Assembly: GCA_021797355.1 (NCBI GenBank)
Contig: JAJZZX010000001.1
Coordinates: 326,523-390,522 of the forward strand
Length of the DNA: 64,000 bases
Direction: 5' to 3'
Source: Thermoplasmata archaeon
Lineage (GTDB): Archaea > Thermoplasmatota > Thermoplasmata > Thermoplasmatales > Thermoplasmataceae
The position numbers and the translations under genes are program-made. Within the stretch, counting starts at the first letter, position 1. Every line of letters begins with the position of its first letter. Below are positions 2,712 through 11,394 of this stretch, piece by piece. The notes under the pieces are model-generated. The model had not been told where the DNA came from, made no database searches, and worked only from the letters and a program-made list of their open reading frames with translations.

Positions 2712-3854
2712 TTGTTCATGACACTGGGGAACTTTGCCAACTCCGCCTATTCTCCACTGACACCATTCCTGAAATCACATTACCTGCTGAACTCTGCACA
2801 ACTTGGGCTCGTAACAAGCTTCATTTTCATTGGGTCACTTTCAGTCTCTTCTCTTACGGGATTTTTCGTTGACCGCCTTGGATCTCGGACAGCCCTGAAA
2901 ATAGCCTTTGCCATAATTTCAGTAGGATCACTGCTGGCTGCAGCTTCAAGAAGCTTTCCGGAGCTTGTTGCCGGTTTCTATATGATAGGGTTTGGATACG
3001 GCATTGTGACACCGTCAACCAACAGTGCTGTAATGGGGTCATATTATCCAAATCATGCGAGGATAATGGGAATAAAACAGTCAGGAGTTCCCCTGGGCGC
3101 TGCTCTTGCAGCAATTTCTCTTCCTCTATTGGCACTTCACTTTTCATTGCAGGCTGCCCTCGTCATAGTGGCTGTAGTTTCCATTGCTGTTTCAGCTTCT
3201 GTCCATCGTGATAAACACCCTGGCCGGGAGAAAAATATCAGGAGTGGATATTTTCTTGAATTTGCCAGGACATGGGCAAACAGGACCTTAATATCTGTAA
3301 GCCTTCCAGTTGCCTTTCTTTCGTGGGGGCAGGCTAGTCTGCTGACATTCTATGTTGTCTACGATAGGAGCATGGGAATTCAGCTGGAGATCGCTGAAAT
3401 ATTACTGGCCACGTTGCTCGTTGGGTCGGTATTCGGCAGGATAGTATGGATAAGCCTTTCTGAACGCATGTTCTCCCAGAGCAGATCCCACATGATATCC
3501 CTCCTGATGTCATTGTCAGGTGTCCTATTCCTGGTTTTTTCAGTATCACAGGGAAATCTGCTTATCCTTGCGCCATTGACCTTCTTCATAGGCATGAGTG
3601 CAATTGGCTGGAACAGCACCTATGTAACCATGGTTTCTGAGATAGCCCCAAGGGAGAGAATTGGGCTGTTTAGCGGAGTGAGCCTTATGATGATAAGCAT
3701 GGGGACAATTCTGGGCACACCAACCTCCGGCATACTGGTGGATAATTTCTCTTACGTATTAATGTGGAGAGTGATAGGGGGCGCACTTCTCATAATGTCA
3801 CTGATAATGATACTGATTGCAAGAAGTCTTGGCAAGGGGAAAGCCTCAGGCTGA
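2712..3854 (+). CDS. MFS transporter
   Basis: Major facilitator superfamily carrier of 380 residues with about 12 hydrophobic segments. FFVDRLGSRTALKIAF is the cytoplasmic loop 2-3 motif (GXXXDRXGRR-like), and GIKQSGVPLGAALAA and GLFSGVSLMMISMGTILGTP are typical helix stretches. Start choice is uncertain: TTG at 2712 and ATG at 2718 both sit at the edge of the first membrane helix, and in-frame stops occur at 2655-2660. It follows the HxlR regulator by ~90 bp. Its 3' end overlaps the convergent Lrp-like gene by 9 bp. Substrate unknown; drug or metabolite efflux fits the HxlR context but is inference. Confidence 0.85.
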   Translation: MFMTLGNFANSAYSPLTPFLKSHYLLNSAQLGLVTSFIFIGSLSVSSLTGFFVDRLGSRTALKIAFAIISVGSLLAAASRSFPELVAGFYMIGFGYGIVTPSTNSAVMGSYYPNHARIMGIKQSGVPLGAALAAISLPLLALHFSLQAALVIVAVVSIAVSASVHRDKHPGREKNIRSGYFLEFARTWANRTLISVSLPVAFLSWGQASLLTFYVVYDRSMGIQLEIAEILLATLLVGSVFGRIVWISLSERMFSQSRSHMISLLMSLSGVLFLVFSVSQGNLLILAPLTFFIGMSAIGWNSTYVTMVSEIAPRERIGLFSGVSLMMISMGTILGTPTSGILVDNFSYVLMWRVIGGALLIMSLIMILIARSLGKGKASG

Positions 3855-4775
3855 TCTCACGTTTTCCTTTTTCTCCATGAGGCTTAACCTGCTGGTTATG
3901 GCATCGATAACCTCATCCTCGGAAATGGGATAGGTGTCAACTGGCGAGAATGTTGTAACATTGGTTACAAATGGAATGGAAGAAAGCCATTCCCGGCAGT
4001 GCAGCATCCTCTCATAGTTTTTTGAATAGCCCATTACGAGTACGGAAGAAACGAAATTGTCATCTATATTGTATATGTCGCTATCCGAGGCAGAAATGAT
4101 GTATTCCATCACCTTGCTTTCACAGCCAGTACAGGTTGTGAGAACTGCTGCAAATATTATGCCATTTTCCATTTTCTTTGAGTTTAATGCGGTTCTTAGG
4201 CTGAAAGCACCCCGCGCCGCCAGCCTATTGATTATTTTTTCGGCACTTCCTTGCTCCAGCCCTACAGTTCTTTCAATTTCCTTGCTTGAAACAAAGGGAT
4301 GCAGGATAAGTTCCCTCAATATCTTGAGTTCGTTCAGGGTAAATGATATCTTCCTCTTCCTGAATGCTGTGAGGTCAGCCAGGGGGAACTGAGTGTTACC
4401 AAGATCCTCCAAAACTGCTATTTTCCTGGCTAGATCGCTGTTCCCACGGTGAAGTATGTTATATGTTACATACCCATCCACAACGATATGTACAGAATAG
4501 ATCCATGAGAAGCCAGATGCTTTTGACACTATCTCCTCTGCACTCATTTTTGTACGGAACCCGATGGCAGATAGATCCAATCCCAAAAAAGGAAACCTAG
4601 GAACCAGCTTTATGTCCCTGATAACTCCGTCAACCCTCATCTTCCTCAATCGTGCCCTAACAGTCCATTCAGAAAAGCCAACCTTGCTGGCAATCCTTGC
4701 GTAAGTGGGCCTTTCCGGGTTGTTAGGGCTGGGCCATTGAAGTGCCCGAAGCAGTTCCAGAATGGAATTTTCCAA
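3846..4775 (-). CDS. Large Lrp/AsnC-like winged-helix regulator with two HTH units
   Basis: A 309-residue DNA-binding protein. The first wHTH (about residues 20-65) contains RIASKVGFSEWTVRARLRKM, typical of Lrp/AsnC. A second HTH (about 155-200) contains VSSKEIERTVGLEQGSAEKI. The region after each HTH has alternating hydrophobic stretches like RAM/ACT-type ligand domains, so the protein looks like a fused tandem of an Lrp-like unit. This is larger than the usual 150-residue Lrp. The TTG start lies ~25 nt from a taatttatag TATA-like element, which supports a leaderless TTG. Ligand and targets are unknown. The neighbouring MFS and APC carriers are candidates. Confidence 0.8.
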   Translation of the reverse strand: MENSILELLRALQWPSPNNPERPTYARIASKVGFSEWTVRARLRKMRVDGVIRDIKLVPRFPFLGLDLSAIGFRTKMSAEEIVSKASGFSWIYSVHIVVDGYVTYNILHRGNSDLARKIAVLEDLGNTQFPLADLTAFRKRKISFTLNELKILRELILHPFVSSKEIERTVGLEQGSAEKIINRLAARGAFSLRTALNSKKMENGIIFAAVLTTCTGCESKVMEYIISASDSDIYNIDDNFVSSVLVMGYSKNYERMLHCREWLSSIPFVTNVTTFSPVDTYPISEDEVIDAITSRLSLMEKKENVRSA

Positions 4776-4918: not shown

Positions 4919-5038
4919 TTGTGTCAGGACTGCGCAATTGAGGAATGCGAATGCAACAGCTGCTACGCCTACAGGCACAATCCAGCCTGCCCTGTATGCG
5001 GACATACAATCTATCTTGACTGCTGCCAGGGTTTCTGA
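4919..5038 (+). CDS. Candidate 39-residue Cys-rich metal-binding micro-protein
   Basis: In this frame a short ORF reads with nine cysteines in 39 residues: CQDC, ECECNSC, ACPVC and a C-terminal DCC, plus two histidines. CPVCGHTIYL looks like a zinc-ribbon half-knuckle. The frame is open from 4814 but has no ATG or GTG; TTG at 4919 is the best start, with GGAGG at 4902-4906 about 12 nt before it. The dense CxxC spacing is hard to get by chance, but the weak start makes this a candidate only. It precedes the APC permease by 230 bp. It could be a remnant of a longer zinc protein. Confidence 0.4.
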   Translation: MCQDCAIEECECNSCYAYRHNPACPVCGHTIYLDCCQGF

Positions 5039-5149
5039 TTAACTGGATTTAATTATTTATATCGCAATTAGAGGAAATTTATGAGTATTTAGGAAGCAAA
5101 TTAATCTAAGTATTGGCAAATTGTCGACATAAGTTCCGTTTACAATACA

Positions 5150-5272
5150 CTTTTATATAATGAAGTCGATTAGGATATGCTGGCGAATGGAATGTGAAGC
5201 TGCTTGATTCAGCAGGCAGTGGATAAATAATTTCTGGTCGCCAGAAGACCCAGAACTGAAGGGGATAACATC
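5150..5272 (+). promoter_or_regulatory. Promoter and structured leader of the APC permease
   Basis: ttttatataa at 5151-5160 is a strong TATA-like box. Transcription would start near 5180, giving a ~90-nt leader, unusual here where many genes look leaderless. The leader holds a hairpin at 5200-5215 (CTGCT/AGCAG) and a perfect 6-bp hairpin at 5232-5246 (TTCTGG-tcg-CCAGAA). CTGGCGA at 5180-5186 is fully complementary to TCGCCAG at 5238-5244, so it would compete with the second hairpin. An SD-like AAGGGGAT precedes the ATG. Two mini-ORFs start at 5177 (6 codons) and 5187. Switch behaviour is inference. Confidence 0.45.
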
Positions 5273-6739
5273 ATGATACGAAGAAGAAATAGACTACAAA
5301 GAAATGCCGTAGGGCTATTCCAGGGTGTTTTCCAGTCACTGGGACAGGTTGCCCCAGCTGCTGACATCGCCATACTTCTGGTAGCGTCATTCTCCATAGC
5401 AGGACCAGAAACGGTGCTTTCTGTAATATTTGGTTGGCTGATTTACGCCCTATGGATGATTACGCCTTACCAGTTTAGCAAGTACAAGTCAAACGCCGGA
5501 AGTTATTATGCGTACGCATCTTCGGCCACCGAAAAGGGAAAATTTGGTCCCATAACAGCATTCAGCTTCATGTATTATGACATAACCGGCGCAGCATTTG
5601 GCATTCTCGGTCTCTCAAGCTTCATCTTTCTTCTTTCACCTGAAATAACAAGGATTCCATTCGTATGGATACTGTTCGCTGCAGCCTTTACTGGCTATAT
5701 TATTGCGGTGACATATTTCGGCATAAAACCATCACTTGGGTACAATGCAATTGCAGGGCTCGCGGAGGTATTGTTCCTTCTCATAGGTGCCATAATAATT
5801 ATAATACGCGTGGGCCCGGGGAATTCAGTGTTGCCATTCACAATATCAAAGTCTACTGGCATCGGGTTTTCGGCCATAATGTTCGGTGCCGTTTTTTCAA
5901 TCCTGGACTTTACGGGAAGCGGCGTGGTGACAACAGTTTCAGAGGAAATCAGGGAGCCTAAGAGGAACATCGGCAGGTCAATTATATATGCAATTGTCCT
6001 CACGGCAATTTCTATAATTCCTGCTACGTATGCACTTACTGTTGGATGGGGGGTGCACAACATTGCAAGTTTTGCAACTACCAGCGATGCTGGACTGGTG
6101 GTTTTCAGCAGATACCTTGGCCCAGTTGGACTGGTACTGCTCATAATATTCACAGTGAACAGCTACCTAACCAATGGCGTTTCTAAGGCGACTGCCGTAA
6201 GCAGATGGTGGTATTCAGCTGCAAGTGATGGTGTCGTATTTCCCAGGAAACTAAGCCACATCCATCCTAAATACAAGTCTCCGGCAAACGCCATTATCGC
6301 CTGGGCCCTTGGCTCCTTTTTCCTTGATGTCGTCATGGGAATACTATACGGACCGGAGAATGCAGCATTCATTCTTGAAGCCGGAACCGGGATTTCCATA
6401 ATCCTCGTGCACATTCTTGCCAACACTTCACTTACGTTTTTCACGCGGCGGATTGGGGAATTCAAGCTCCTGACTCATGGTATTGCCCCTGCGGTAGCTA
6501 CAGCCATTGGGCTGGTTGTGATATATTTCACCATAAGCGATGTAGTTTCCAGGTGGCTCTCCACACCTTCTGCGGTGAATGACGCATATTTCGCATCATT
6601 GATTGTAACAATGGCATGGATCATAATTGGAGGTCTTGCTGTTACCGCTTACTATTCAAGGAAGCGTCCTGGCACACTGGAAAGCGCGGGAGAATTCGAT
6701 GTTGAAGGCTCAGAGGCGCGAAGCAACCCTGCAGATTAA
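5273..6739 (+). CDS. APC-superfamily amino acid permease
   Basis: A 488-residue cytoplasmic-membrane carrier with about 12 hydrophobic helices. The N-terminal GLFQGVFQSLGQVAPAADIA segment resembles the broken first helix of APC transporters. The FTGSGVVTTVSEEIREPKRN motif near residue 215 is the hallmark loop (…EEIxxPxRxIPRAI). It likely imports amino acids or other organic cations by proton symport; the substrate cannot be told. The C-terminal tail after ~460 is hydrophilic and acidic. The ATG at 5273 has an SD-like AAGGGGAT 6-7 nt before it. The gene has a long structured leader and ends in a 4-bp convergent overlap with the esterase gene. Confidence 0.9.
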   Translation: MIRRRNRLQRNAVGLFQGVFQSLGQVAPAADIAILLVASFSIAGPETVLSVIFGWLIYALWMITPYQFSKYKSNAGSYYAYASSATEKGKFGPITAFSFMYYDITGAAFGILGLSSFIFLLSPEITRIPFVWILFAAAFTGYIIAVTYFGIKPSLGYNAIAGLAEVLFLLIGAIIIIIRVGPGNSVLPFTISKSTGIGFSAIMFGAVFSILDFTGSGVVTTVSEEIREPKRNIGRSIIYAIVLTAISIIPATYALTVGWGVHNIASFATTSDAGLVVFSRYLGPVGLVLLIIFTVNSYLTNGVSKATAVSRWWYSAASDGVVFPRKLSHIHPKYKSPANAIIAWALGSFFLDVVMGILYGPENAAFILEAGTGISIILVHILANTSLTFFTRRIGEFKLLTHGIAPAVATAIGLVVIYFTISDVVSRWLSTPSAVNDAYFASLIVTMAWIIIGGLAVTAYYSRKRPGTLESAGEFDVEGSEARSNPAD

Positions 6740-8697: not shown

Positions 8698-8885
8698 GAT
8701 GGCTCATATTTTTTTTCCTAAAAAAGCTAATGTAATTCAGGGGATCAGTTACCAAGTTACCATTAGGATATTCAGTGAAATAGATTGGTAAATAGTTTCG
8801 TTACATCACGGAATGCTTGTTAGATTCTATCAGACCATTAGGGATCGCATTGAAATATTGCATATTATTTGATCAAGTGAACAGC

Positions 8886-10772
8886 ATGTCCTCATATAGG
8901 GAGCTTGTTACACAACAACCAGGTTCGAATGCATTTCTCCTGGGAAATGAAGCAATAGTCAGAGGACTCTTGGAAGCAGGAGTAGAGGCGGCTTCCACGT
9001 ACCCAGGAACCCCATCAAGCGAAATAGGGGACGCCCTTTTTGAAATCGCCGAAGAAGCAGGCATCAGGTTTGAGTTTTCAGTAAATGAAAAAGTTGCAGT
9101 GGAAACAGCCTTTGCAGCTTCACTTTCAGGCCTGAAATCGTTCGTGTTCATGAAGCATGTTGGGCTCAACGTCGCATCCGACGCTGTCATGAGCATTGCG
9201 TATACCGGTGTTGGTGCGCCAATGGTCATAATGACCGCTGACGATCCATCAATGTTTTCATCTCAAAATGAACAGGACAATCGAATCTATGCCGGCCTGT
9301 CCCATCTTCCGATGGTAGAACCATCTGATCCACAGGAGGCGAAGGACTTTCTGATATCTGCCTTCGATATGTCAGAAAGGGAAAAGCTACCCGTGCTGTT
9401 CAGAACGACCACAAGAACAAGCCACATGAGGTCAACTGTCACGTTCGGCAGCCCGAGACAAAGGACCAGATATGAAGTCCTCAATGATCCCGGAATGTTT
9501 GTAACCTTGCCGTCTAATTCTTACAAGTTCAAGGAAAAACTGATAGAGAGAATGGGCAAAATAGCAGCTGCTGGTTATGAAAAGGTATTTAACTCTACCA
9601 TAGTCAATTCCGGCTCAAACACAGGAATAGTTTGCTCTGGAGAAGCTTACAACGTAATTTCTGATGTCTTGACTGAAATAGCCCAACCACTTGACATTCT
9701 GAAACTTGGTCTCATAAATCCATTGTCGGAAGGTATGATTGTGGACTTTCTTTCAACCCATAAAACGGTGCTGGTTGCAGAGGAAGTTGACCCGGTTATA
9801 GAATCTGGGATCAGGGCCATATCACAGAAGAACGGGTTAGCTGTCACAATTCTGGGAAAGCTCGATGGAACCTTTCCAATGAGTTATGAAATGTCTCCAA
9901 GTGCTACTGAAAAAATTTTGCGGAAAATGCTGCATCTCGAAAGGAATGAAAACTCAGAAAAAATAACATTGGGCTATTCTGTCCCACCAAGGCCTCCTGT
10001 TCTCTGCCCTGGCTGCCCGCATAGGGGAACTTACTTCGCAGTAAAGAGGGCGGTGAAGATGCTTAGAATAGATAACCCTATTTATTCTTCAGATATCGGT
10101 TGTTATTCCCTTGGAGACTATGAACCATTCAAGGAAGCAACCGTGATGCTAAGCATGGGCTCATCCATAGGTGTTGCATCGGGCTTCAGGGGAGCAACGG
10201 ACCGCAGGATCATATCGTTCATCGGAGATTCAACATTCTTCCATAGCGGCATCCCTGGCCTCATAAATGCCGTTCACAATAGGTCCAGAATTCTCTTCGT
10301 GATAATGGATAACGACGTCACCGCAATGACAGGCAGGCAGCCAAATCCAGGAACTCCTGCCAATCTTATGGGGGGATTGCGCAGCATATCAATTGTCGAT
10401 CTAGTGAAATCAATTGGCGTGGATTTCATCAGGGAAATCGATCCCTATGATCTCAGGGAGTCCCTAGCTGCAAGCATGGAGGCACTAAGGCATGAGGGAG
10501 TATCAGTAATAATCGCCAAGCGGGAGTGTGCAATAATAAGGGATAACAGGAACAGAAAGGCCGGTATATCTGAAAAATATAAGGTCAATCCAGATAAATG
10601 CAGCGGGTGCATGAACTGCGTAACTACGTTTTCATGTCCCGCAATGTCGATATCAAACGGTAAAGTCACCATAGATCCTGCCCTTTGTGATGGCTGTGGC
10701 GTATGTGCACAGCCCTATGTCTGCCCATTCAACGCCATCCAGATAGATGAGGTGTCTGCCAATGCAGCATAA
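8886..10772 (+). CDS. iorA: Indolepyruvate ferredoxin oxidoreductase, alpha subunit
   Basis: Thiamine-diphosphate and iron-sulfur subunit that oxidatively decarboxylates aryl-pyruvates to aryl-acetyl-CoA with ferredoxin. The pyrimidine-binding domain starts at GNEAIVRGLLEAGVEAAST. CPGCPHRGTYFAVKRA near residue 380 and the TPP motif GDSTFFHSG near 450 follow. The C-terminus has two 4Fe-4S sets, CSGCMNC…CP and CDGCGVC…CP. The ATG at 8886 gives 628 residues, normal for the family. An upstream TTG at 8817 would add an atypical 23-residue leader, and a gcatattattt element supports a start near 8886. iorB overlaps by 11 bp, so the two are one operon for aromatic amino acid catabolism. Confidence 0.94.
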   Translation: MSSYRELVTQQPGSNAFLLGNEAIVRGLLEAGVEAASTYPGTPSSEIGDALFEIAEEAGIRFEFSVNEKVAVETAFAASLSGLKSFVFMKHVGLNVASDAVMSIAYTGVGAPMVIMTADDPSMFSSQNEQDNRIYAGLSHLPMVEPSDPQEAKDFLISAFDMSEREKLPVLFRTTTRTSHMRSTVTFGSPRQRTRYEVLNDPGMFVTLPSNSYKFKEKLIERMGKIAAAGYEKVFNSTIVNSGSNTGIVCSGEAYNVISDVLTEIAQPLDILKLGLINPLSEGMIVDFLSTHKTVLVAEEVDPVIESGIRAISQKNGLAVTILGKLDGTFPMSYEMSPSATEKILRKMLHLERNENSEKITLGYSVPPRPPVLCPGCPHRGTYFAVKRAVKMLRIDNPIYSSDIGCYSLGDYEPFKEATVMLSMGSSIGVASGFRGATDRRIISFIGDSTFFHSGIPGLINAVHNRSRILFVIMDNDVTAMTGRQPNPGTPANLMGGLRSISIVDLVKSIGVDFIREIDPYDLRESLAASMEALRHEGVSVIIAKRECAIIRDNRNRKAGISEKYKVNPDKCSGCMNCVTTFSCPAMSISNGKVTIDPALCDGCGVCAQPYVCPFNAIQIDEVSANAA

Positions 10773-11394
10773 TATCATAATAACAGGAGTGGGAGGGCAG
10801 GGGGTGGTCACACTTGGCCTCATCATTTCATCTGCTGCAATCTCATTTGGGGAAAGGGCCATAATGTCAGAAATTCATGGACTTGCGCAAAGGGGAGGCA
10901 GTGTTTCCGTTGACGTAAGAATAGGCAATTATCGCGCTCCTATAGTTCCGGATGGGAAGGCAGACCTGATTATTTCTCTGGAACCTCTAGAAGCTCTCCG
11001 GGCAATTTCAAGGGCAGGACCATCCACCGTTGTGGTGATGGGGGAAGAAAGGCTGCCACCAGTCTATTTGGGAATACACAGGCAGAGCTATCCCGACTTA
11101 AACGAAATAATCGGTGTCATATCACATAAGCTCAGGCTTTACCATCTGGACGCCATGCGTCTTGCAAGGGAAGCTGGCGATACAAGGACAGTAAATACCG
11201 TAATGGTAGGCTATATTGTCGGTTTGGGTCTGATATCTATCCCTCAGCAGATTTTTCACAGAGAGATAGAGAAAACCTTTGCGAAAAAGTATGCGGATAT
11301 GAATATGAAGGCATTTGCGTTAGGCTTGCAGACTGCACAGAAAATAATGGCAACGGGAAACGACACAGTTGAAATTCAACATGGCTTTGGTTAA
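10762..11394 (+). CDS. iorB: Indolepyruvate ferredoxin oxidoreductase, beta subunit
   Basis: The 2-oxoacid oxidoreductase gamma-type subunit that pairs with IorA. NIIITGVGGQGVVTLGLIIS at the N-terminus is the family signature, followed by SEIHGLAQRGGSVSVDVRIG and NTVMVGYIVGLG. The ATG at 10762 gives 210 residues and a domain start right at the motif; a further in-frame ATG lies at 10747. The overlap with the iorA stop implies translational coupling. The length matches stand-alone IorB proteins. Confidence 0.94.
   Translation: MQHNIIITGVGGQGVVTLGLIISSAAISFGERAIMSEIHGLAQRGGSVSVDVRIGNYRAPIVPDGKADLIISLEPLEALRAISRAGPSTVVVMGEERLPPVYLGIHRQSYPDLNEIIGVISHKLRLYHLDAMRLAREAGDTRTVNTVMVGYIVGLGLISIPQQIFHREIEKTFAKKYADMNMKAFALGLQTAQKIMATGNDTVEIQHGFG

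Follow-up and report, generated by a model that had tools for sequence, protein, structure and literature searches.

Orphan riboswitch candidates, of which the crcB (fluoride) motif is an archaeal example, combine a structured 5' leader, a conserved unpaired core and a transporter gene. The same combination is found in front of an APC-type amino acid permease in the window, the whole 64-kb stretch of DNA that was analysed (its genome is referred to as G000). The element described here differs from such candidates in that it has no Rfam match, serves one gene in two genera, and has no conserved expression platform that could be found. It is best explained as an orphan, lineage-specific cis-acting RNA at the 5' end of the permease mRNA, with an internal loop that a small molecule or protein probably recognizes; we give this reading a probability of about 0.58, divided roughly evenly between the two kinds of reader. 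The features of the locus are as follows.

5152..5159, forward strand: TATA box TTTTATAT in the promoter of the permease, kept in each of the five orthologs.
5180..5244, forward strand: structured RNA element of 65 nt, beginning at the predicted 5' end of the mRNA; 75.9 bits in the window with model R1, which was built from the five elements and scores those five by construction.
5180..5186, forward strand: 5' strand of the outer stem P1, CTGGCGA, pairing with 5238-5244.
5189..5192, forward strand: 5' strand of P1b, GGAA, pairing with 5232-5235, less strongly in G004 and G025 than in G000, G001 and G003.
5193..5198, forward strand: first strand of the internal loop, UGUGAA, 6/6 identical in every pair compared.
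5200..5219, forward strand: inner hairpin P2, CTGCTTG-ATTCAG-CAGGCAG, with CTGC/GCAG invariant and distal pairs that vary while pairing is mostly kept.
5221..5227, forward strand: second strand of the internal loop, GGAUAAA, 7/7 identical in every pair compared.
5232..5235, forward strand: 3' strand of P1b, TTCT, from the alignment of five orthologs.
5238..5244, forward strand: 3' strand of P1, TCGCCAG, pairing with 5180-5186.
5259..5265, forward strand: weak SD-like AAGGGGA before the start codon, read directly.
5273..6739, forward strand: APC-type amino acid permease of 488 aa (Pfam AA_permease PF00324, E 3.6e-62), the start of which aligns with the orthologs.

The element consists of an outer stem (P1) and an inner hairpin (P2), between which UGUGAA faces GGAUAAA across an asymmetric internal loop. 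P1 is formed by CTGGCGA/TCGCCAG in G000 and by TAAGCGG/CCGCTTG in G001 and G003; in G025 two registers are possible, GAGAGG/TCTCTC or the model register UGAGAGG/CCUUCCA with one mismatch. P2 is CTGCTTG/CAGGCAG in G000, CTGC(C)ATG/CATGCAG in G001 and CTGCAGGT/ATCTGCAG in G025. P1 starts at the TATA-predicted mRNA 5' end in all five genomes. In G000 the element ends 28 nt before the start codon, with the ribosome site about 15-20 nt past P1, and counterparts of the SD-like sequence are seen at a similar place in the relatives (GGGAG in G001, G003 and G004, GAGGT in G025). The TATA region (5144-5160) is identical at 15/17 positions between G000 and G001 and at 11/17 between G000 and G025. A first-pass annotation of this DNA had proposed a structured leader of about 90 nt before the permease in a chromosome where many starts look leaderless. 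The comparison of five orthologs supports a structured and conserved leader, and its length is supported by TATA-to-ATG distances of 122, 132, 130, 130 and 129 nt. A rough look at leaderless starts, in which distances are approximate as they run from longest-ORF starts, places a strict TATA word less than 200 nt upstream of 9 of the 49 ORFs of at least 150 aa, and more than 100 nt away in two of these nine.

The five upstream regions (G000, G001, G003, G004 and G025) were aligned from the TATA box to the start codon, with minus-strand loci turned round. The element, of 65-67 nt, precedes the permease in four of the five genomes that represent the window's genus, and also in G025, a genome of a sister genus. 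This gives five sequences, four of them distinct, from three independent lineages, which is too few for a formal covariation test. All 13 loop bases (UGUGAA and GGAUAAA) are invariant across the three lineages, while most of the remaining leader has diverged. Spacing is also kept: the TATA box lies 40-43 nt from the UGUGAA loop strand, and UGUGAA through GGAUAAA spans 35-36 nt in the five genomes. The permease gene is saturated at fourfold-degenerate sites between lineages (identity 0.24-0.32) and the upstream flank is identical at 29/100 positions between G001 and G025; since the loops are invariant against this background, the element is under constraint. The few sequences, all from one clade, could speak for chance conservation or for shared ancestry without function. 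This is very unlikely, because with fourfold sites saturated unconstrained leader bases should not survive, and the 13/13 loop bases stand against a flank of 29/100. The thirteen invariant bases suggest instead that something reads them.

The arms of P1 are identical at only 3/13 and 7/17 positions between G000 and G025, yet they pair within each lineage. Matched arm duplexes of the three lineages have energies of -15.8, -13.2 and -9.1 kcal/mol, the lowest summed energy of the six ways in which three lineages can be combined, and swapped arms are mostly weaker, with the exception of the G001 5' arm with the G000 3' arm (-14.9). When both arms were shuffled, an equally good duplex was obtained in fractions of 0.0015 (G000), 0.0045 (G001), 0.0085 (G004) and 0.073 (G025), so that P1 of G025 taken alone is not significant. 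In the background of the window, arm pairing as good as that of G000, G001 and G025 occurs at 0.0014, 0.0072 and 0.077 of 6392 positions. Two-sided changes are found in P1 at column pairs 1-67, 2-66, 3-65, 5-63 and 7-61. Counted over the 18 pairs of the whole fold, such changes number 4/18 in an unfitted MAFFT alignment, a value reached by 7/500 shuffles. The model-fitted alignment, which leans to structure, has 6/18 pairs, reached by 0/500 shuffles and compared with two or fewer in slid controls.

In a leave-one-out search with a genus-only model, the G025 element ranks first among 30 permease loci, scoring 22.1 bits with structure versus 17.8 with sequence only. Structure therefore adds about 4 bits and most of this signal comes from the sequence core; the E-value of the structured model (0.013) is poorer than that of the sequence-only model (0.00053). 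Folded alone, the G004 element prefers another fold, as do the fuller leaders of G001 and G003.

The conserved block also occupies the stretch from about +10 to +48, shortly after the promoter, a region in which archaeal repressors often bind. A transcription-factor operator in the DNA, the half-sites of which fall in a hairpin by chance, would be consistent with this position, with the conserved bases between the TATA box and +1 (11-12/19 identical, G000 versus its genus relatives) and with the AsnC/Lrp-like HTH gene upstream in the window genome (3846-4775). Such an operator is unlikely, as the conserved strands are not mutual inverted repeats beyond CTGC/GCAG, the P1 arms change together, and locus L041 carries the element but has no HTH gene at the same place.

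With the preferred cis-acting RNA, the question arises of whether the leader switches between folds. The first-pass annotation had noted three sets of pairing words, CTGCT/AGCAG (5200-5204/5211-5215), TTCTGG/CCAGAA (5232-5237/5241-5246) and CTGGCGA/TCGCCAG (5180-5186/5238-5244), together with mini-ORFs starting at 5177 and 5187 ahead of the permease start codon at 5273; all of its words are present in the window sequence. It proposed that CTGGCGA breaks the second hairpin to give two mutually exclusive folds, or that the mini-ORFs act as an attenuator. The long-range pairing is supported, but not as a switch against hairpins: the 7-base complement is P1 itself, so it encloses the first hairpin and nests with P2 without competition. 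That first hairpin is retained as the inner hairpin, not as CTGCT/AGCAG but in the conserved form CTGCTTG/CAGGCAG (5200-5206/5213-5219). In G000 the P1 fold (-29.1 kcal/mol) is favoured over the TTCTGG/CCAGAA fold (-20.8) by about 8 kcal/mol. Blocking the 5' strand in silico brings out the TTCTGG/CCAGAA hairpin in G000 only and in none of the four relatives, whose folds with P1 blocked differ from one another. Lack of conservation or covariation of the pairing segments among relatives had been named as one outcome that would refute the proposal; P1 and P2 survive this comparison and the TTCTGG/CCAGAA hairpin is refuted. The small ORFs are likewise not kept: ahead of the loop, ATG-TGA is all that the G001 and G003 elements offer, and the G004 and G025 elements have no ATG there. 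Although all its pieces are present in the window, the model in which CTGGCGA alternates between two partners, or in which mini-ORFs attenuate, is the least probable of those considered. The element is well supported and switching is not; an undescribed archaeal riboswitch, also suggested by the first-pass annotation, is still a possible reading.

Viewed in one sequence, the pairings of the first-pass annotation are not remarkable. Perfect 6-bp hairpins with loops of 3-8 nt occur at 2.14 per kb on the forward strand of the window, and 7-mers with a perfect complement 40-65 nt downstream at 1.78 per kb. The joint pattern, a 7-bp complement with a hairpin competing for its 3' strand, has nine start positions in three clusters on the forward strand of the 64 kb and six on the reverse strand. 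The 123-nt region has only a moderate folding advantage over shuffles (z -1.74; 14/200 equally good), and that of the 67-nt element is larger (z -3.84; 0/200). It is the comparative evidence, a block of 65-67 nt kept in five permease orthologs, that places the element above chance.

Tempting pairings are available to the 3' arm of P1, in G004 with GGGAGC and GAAGAA, in G025 with GGGAUAC. The idea that this arm sequesters the ribosome site was rejected, matched arms being no better than swapped, shuffled or slid controls, and conserved pairing of the arm with the ribosome site or early codons was not found in the five genomes (shuffled-arm fractions 0.22-0.78). The lack of a conserved switching partner, and the fact that P1 begins at the predicted mRNA start in each of the five genomes, would fit a passive stabilizer, a stem at +1 that protects the mRNA against 5'-to-3' decay or keeps the ribosome site open. 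This reading is improbable, since a plain stem would do and the 13 invariant loop bases would go unexplained.

For the favoured reading, a cis-acting RNA with a recognized loop, transcription is predicted to proceed from the conserved TATA box, such that the mRNA would begin at about 5180 with P1. The internal loop UGUGAA/GGAUAAA may then be the recognition site for a small molecule or an RNA-binding protein, and as the gene is a permease an amino acid or a derivative is the natural guess for a ligand. Occupancy of the loop would change translation or stability of the permease mRNA, and control would thus act after the start of transcription. Given its start at the predicted +1 and its end 28 nt short of the start codon in G000, the element could affect either the loading of ribosomes or decay that sets in at the 5' end. 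Its use with a single gene speaks against this reading to some degree, being unusual for a metabolite sensor. Two hallmarks of riboswitches are seen: a relevant gene has a structured 5' leader element, as judged from the predicted transcription start, and the element has an aptamer-like conserved unpaired core (UGUGAA 6/6, GGAUAAA 7/7). A more specific proposal, that the element represents a new minimal class of archaeal riboswitch, in which a 5'-terminal hairpin of 65 nt, with UGUGAA/GGAUAAA as its loop, senses the amino acid being transported and gates translation of the permease, is tentative and rather doubtful. In the window's genus the sensed amino acid would possibly be aromatic, because indolepyruvate oxidoreductase genes lie close by. 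The element is a candidate control switch in an acid-loving archaeon, of a kind rarely described in archaea, and since it is short, has an invariant core, serves one gene and lends itself to a clear design of mutants, it offers a directly testable case that bears on the basic question of whether archaea sense amino acids with RNA.

Two known structures resemble parts of the element. A kink-turn consists of a three-base bulge and tandem G-A pairs with canonical stems on both sides. In the element GAA lies opposite GGA beside P2 and could form tandem sheared G-A pairs, as on the non-canonical side of a kink-turn, the motif of L7Ae sites in archaeal leaders. The adjoining canonical stem, however, is missing: pairing of the base preceding UGU and of the U that follows GGA is confined to G000, G001 and G003, and the other strand carries about nine additional bases. 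Identity with a kink-turn was rejected on the alignment, in which the canonical C stem is missing from the G004 and G025 elements. The second resemblance is to end hairpins of the IS200/IS605 type. A conserved hairpin, UUUGAGGGA..CUGUAAAACUCC..AUGCUUCAGCAUGG.., is present at 1501-1560 of each of the loci L036, L039 and L038, from G048 (two copies) and G002. It shares the P1-P2 layout and scores 28.8-30.0 bits (G048) and 21.4 bits (G002) with R1. Unlike the element it lacks GGAUAAA, its first loop reads CUGUAAA, and it adjoins ORFs which, recognized by eye, we take to be IS200/605-type transposase-like. The resemblance is likely to be due to chance or convergence.

At E values of 4.6e-8 and below, R1 strongly matches 5 of the 61 relatives, 4 of the 5 genus genomes, 5 of the 77 genomes from the family, 1 of the 40 from the order and 2 of the 389 from the phylum, the last two both of the window's genus. 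All these matches belong to one set of five genomes, and each lies before this permease; with R1 no strong match was found before any other gene in up to 389 genomes. Searches above 40 genomes used strict filters, under which the phylum search scored only 13 candidates per genome and may have passed over distant relatives. Weak matches occur in G051 and G067 (among the 40 order genomes) and G265 (among the 389 phylum genomes), and two matches in G030 were chance-like on reading. A search of the 77 family genomes for the loop words gave one match each in G000, G001 and G003, which is the element itself, two in G004 and three in G025, each including the element; by eye the other matches listed are not hairpins of the element's kind. 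A looser loop-word search, run on 41 genomes, lacked the specificity to be of use. A scan of genome contigs found 21 permease loci, three with the element (G001, G004 and G025 again), and viral contigs yielded none. The element is absent from permease orthologs in Ferroplasma, Acidiplasma and other genera, and the Ferroplasma-type orthologs have TATA-like words near the start codon. A tree of 23 proteins groups the five permeases that carry the element in a single clade (99/96 support), so one origin of the element suffices.

With the 4227 models of Rfam 15 the whole window gives three tRNAs and nothing else at the gathering score, and a permissive search of 5130-5300 only snR61, which lies on the opposite strand (E 2.5; 15.7 bits, gathering score 45). 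Literature searches of open papers, covering titles, abstract openings and passages of PMC8241225, PMC4247193, PMC2864571, PMC10354927 and PMC11349054, listed no paper that names such an element in Thermoplasmatales. Novelty rests on absence from Rfam 15 and from the open papers searched, which is not proof of absence.

Among 61 genomes, three of the four remaining ones in the window's genus have close orthologs of the permease (89% identity); the ortholog in G025, of a second genus of the family, has 74% identity and those of other genera 58-71%. In G002, the fifth genome of the window's genus and 66% complete, the only homolog has 33% identity. A single-sequence search found no solved structural relative of the permease, a profile search gave one weak structure match (7ccs, E 1e-5), and matches in NCBIfam were below the cut-off only. 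In L006 and L014 (G009 and G027) the permease orthologs contain internal stops, the parts in G027 lying about 1.9 kb apart, which suggests decay or insertion.

The gene order in G000 and G001 is HxlR, MFS, microprotein, permease, esterase, flavin reductase, small protein and indolepyruvate oxidoreductase alpha; the beta gene is seen only in G000, as L041 ends inside alpha. The surroundings of the permease differ in G025. In the window, indolepyruvate ferredoxin oxidoreductase alpha and beta occupy 8817-11394 (forward strand), two kb past the permease, and alpha was recognized in L041 by ORF resemblance. The proximity of these genes in the genus prompts the idea that the permease carries an aromatic amino acid, a weak guess and no more. 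The AsnC/Lrp-like HTH gene (3846-4775) is on the reverse strand between the MFS gene and the permease, and is absent there in L041.

An unlisted cysteine-rich microprotein of 39 aa, with CxxC, CxCxxC, CPxCGH and DCC motifs, is encoded at 4919-5038 (forward strand). It starts with TTG in the window and with ATG in relatives, has no NCBIfam match, and is matched in 38 of the 77 family genomes, mostly at 56-82% identity with a few weaker. Among the fetched loci it adjoins the permease only in the window's genus. Finally, L044 and L047, from another genus (UBA447, FK_Sedi_A_Bin.74), have a different structured leader about 90 nt before the permease start, CCCAA..GGTTC..GAACC..TTGGG, for which the two sequences give folds of -14.8 and -22.6 kcal/mol.
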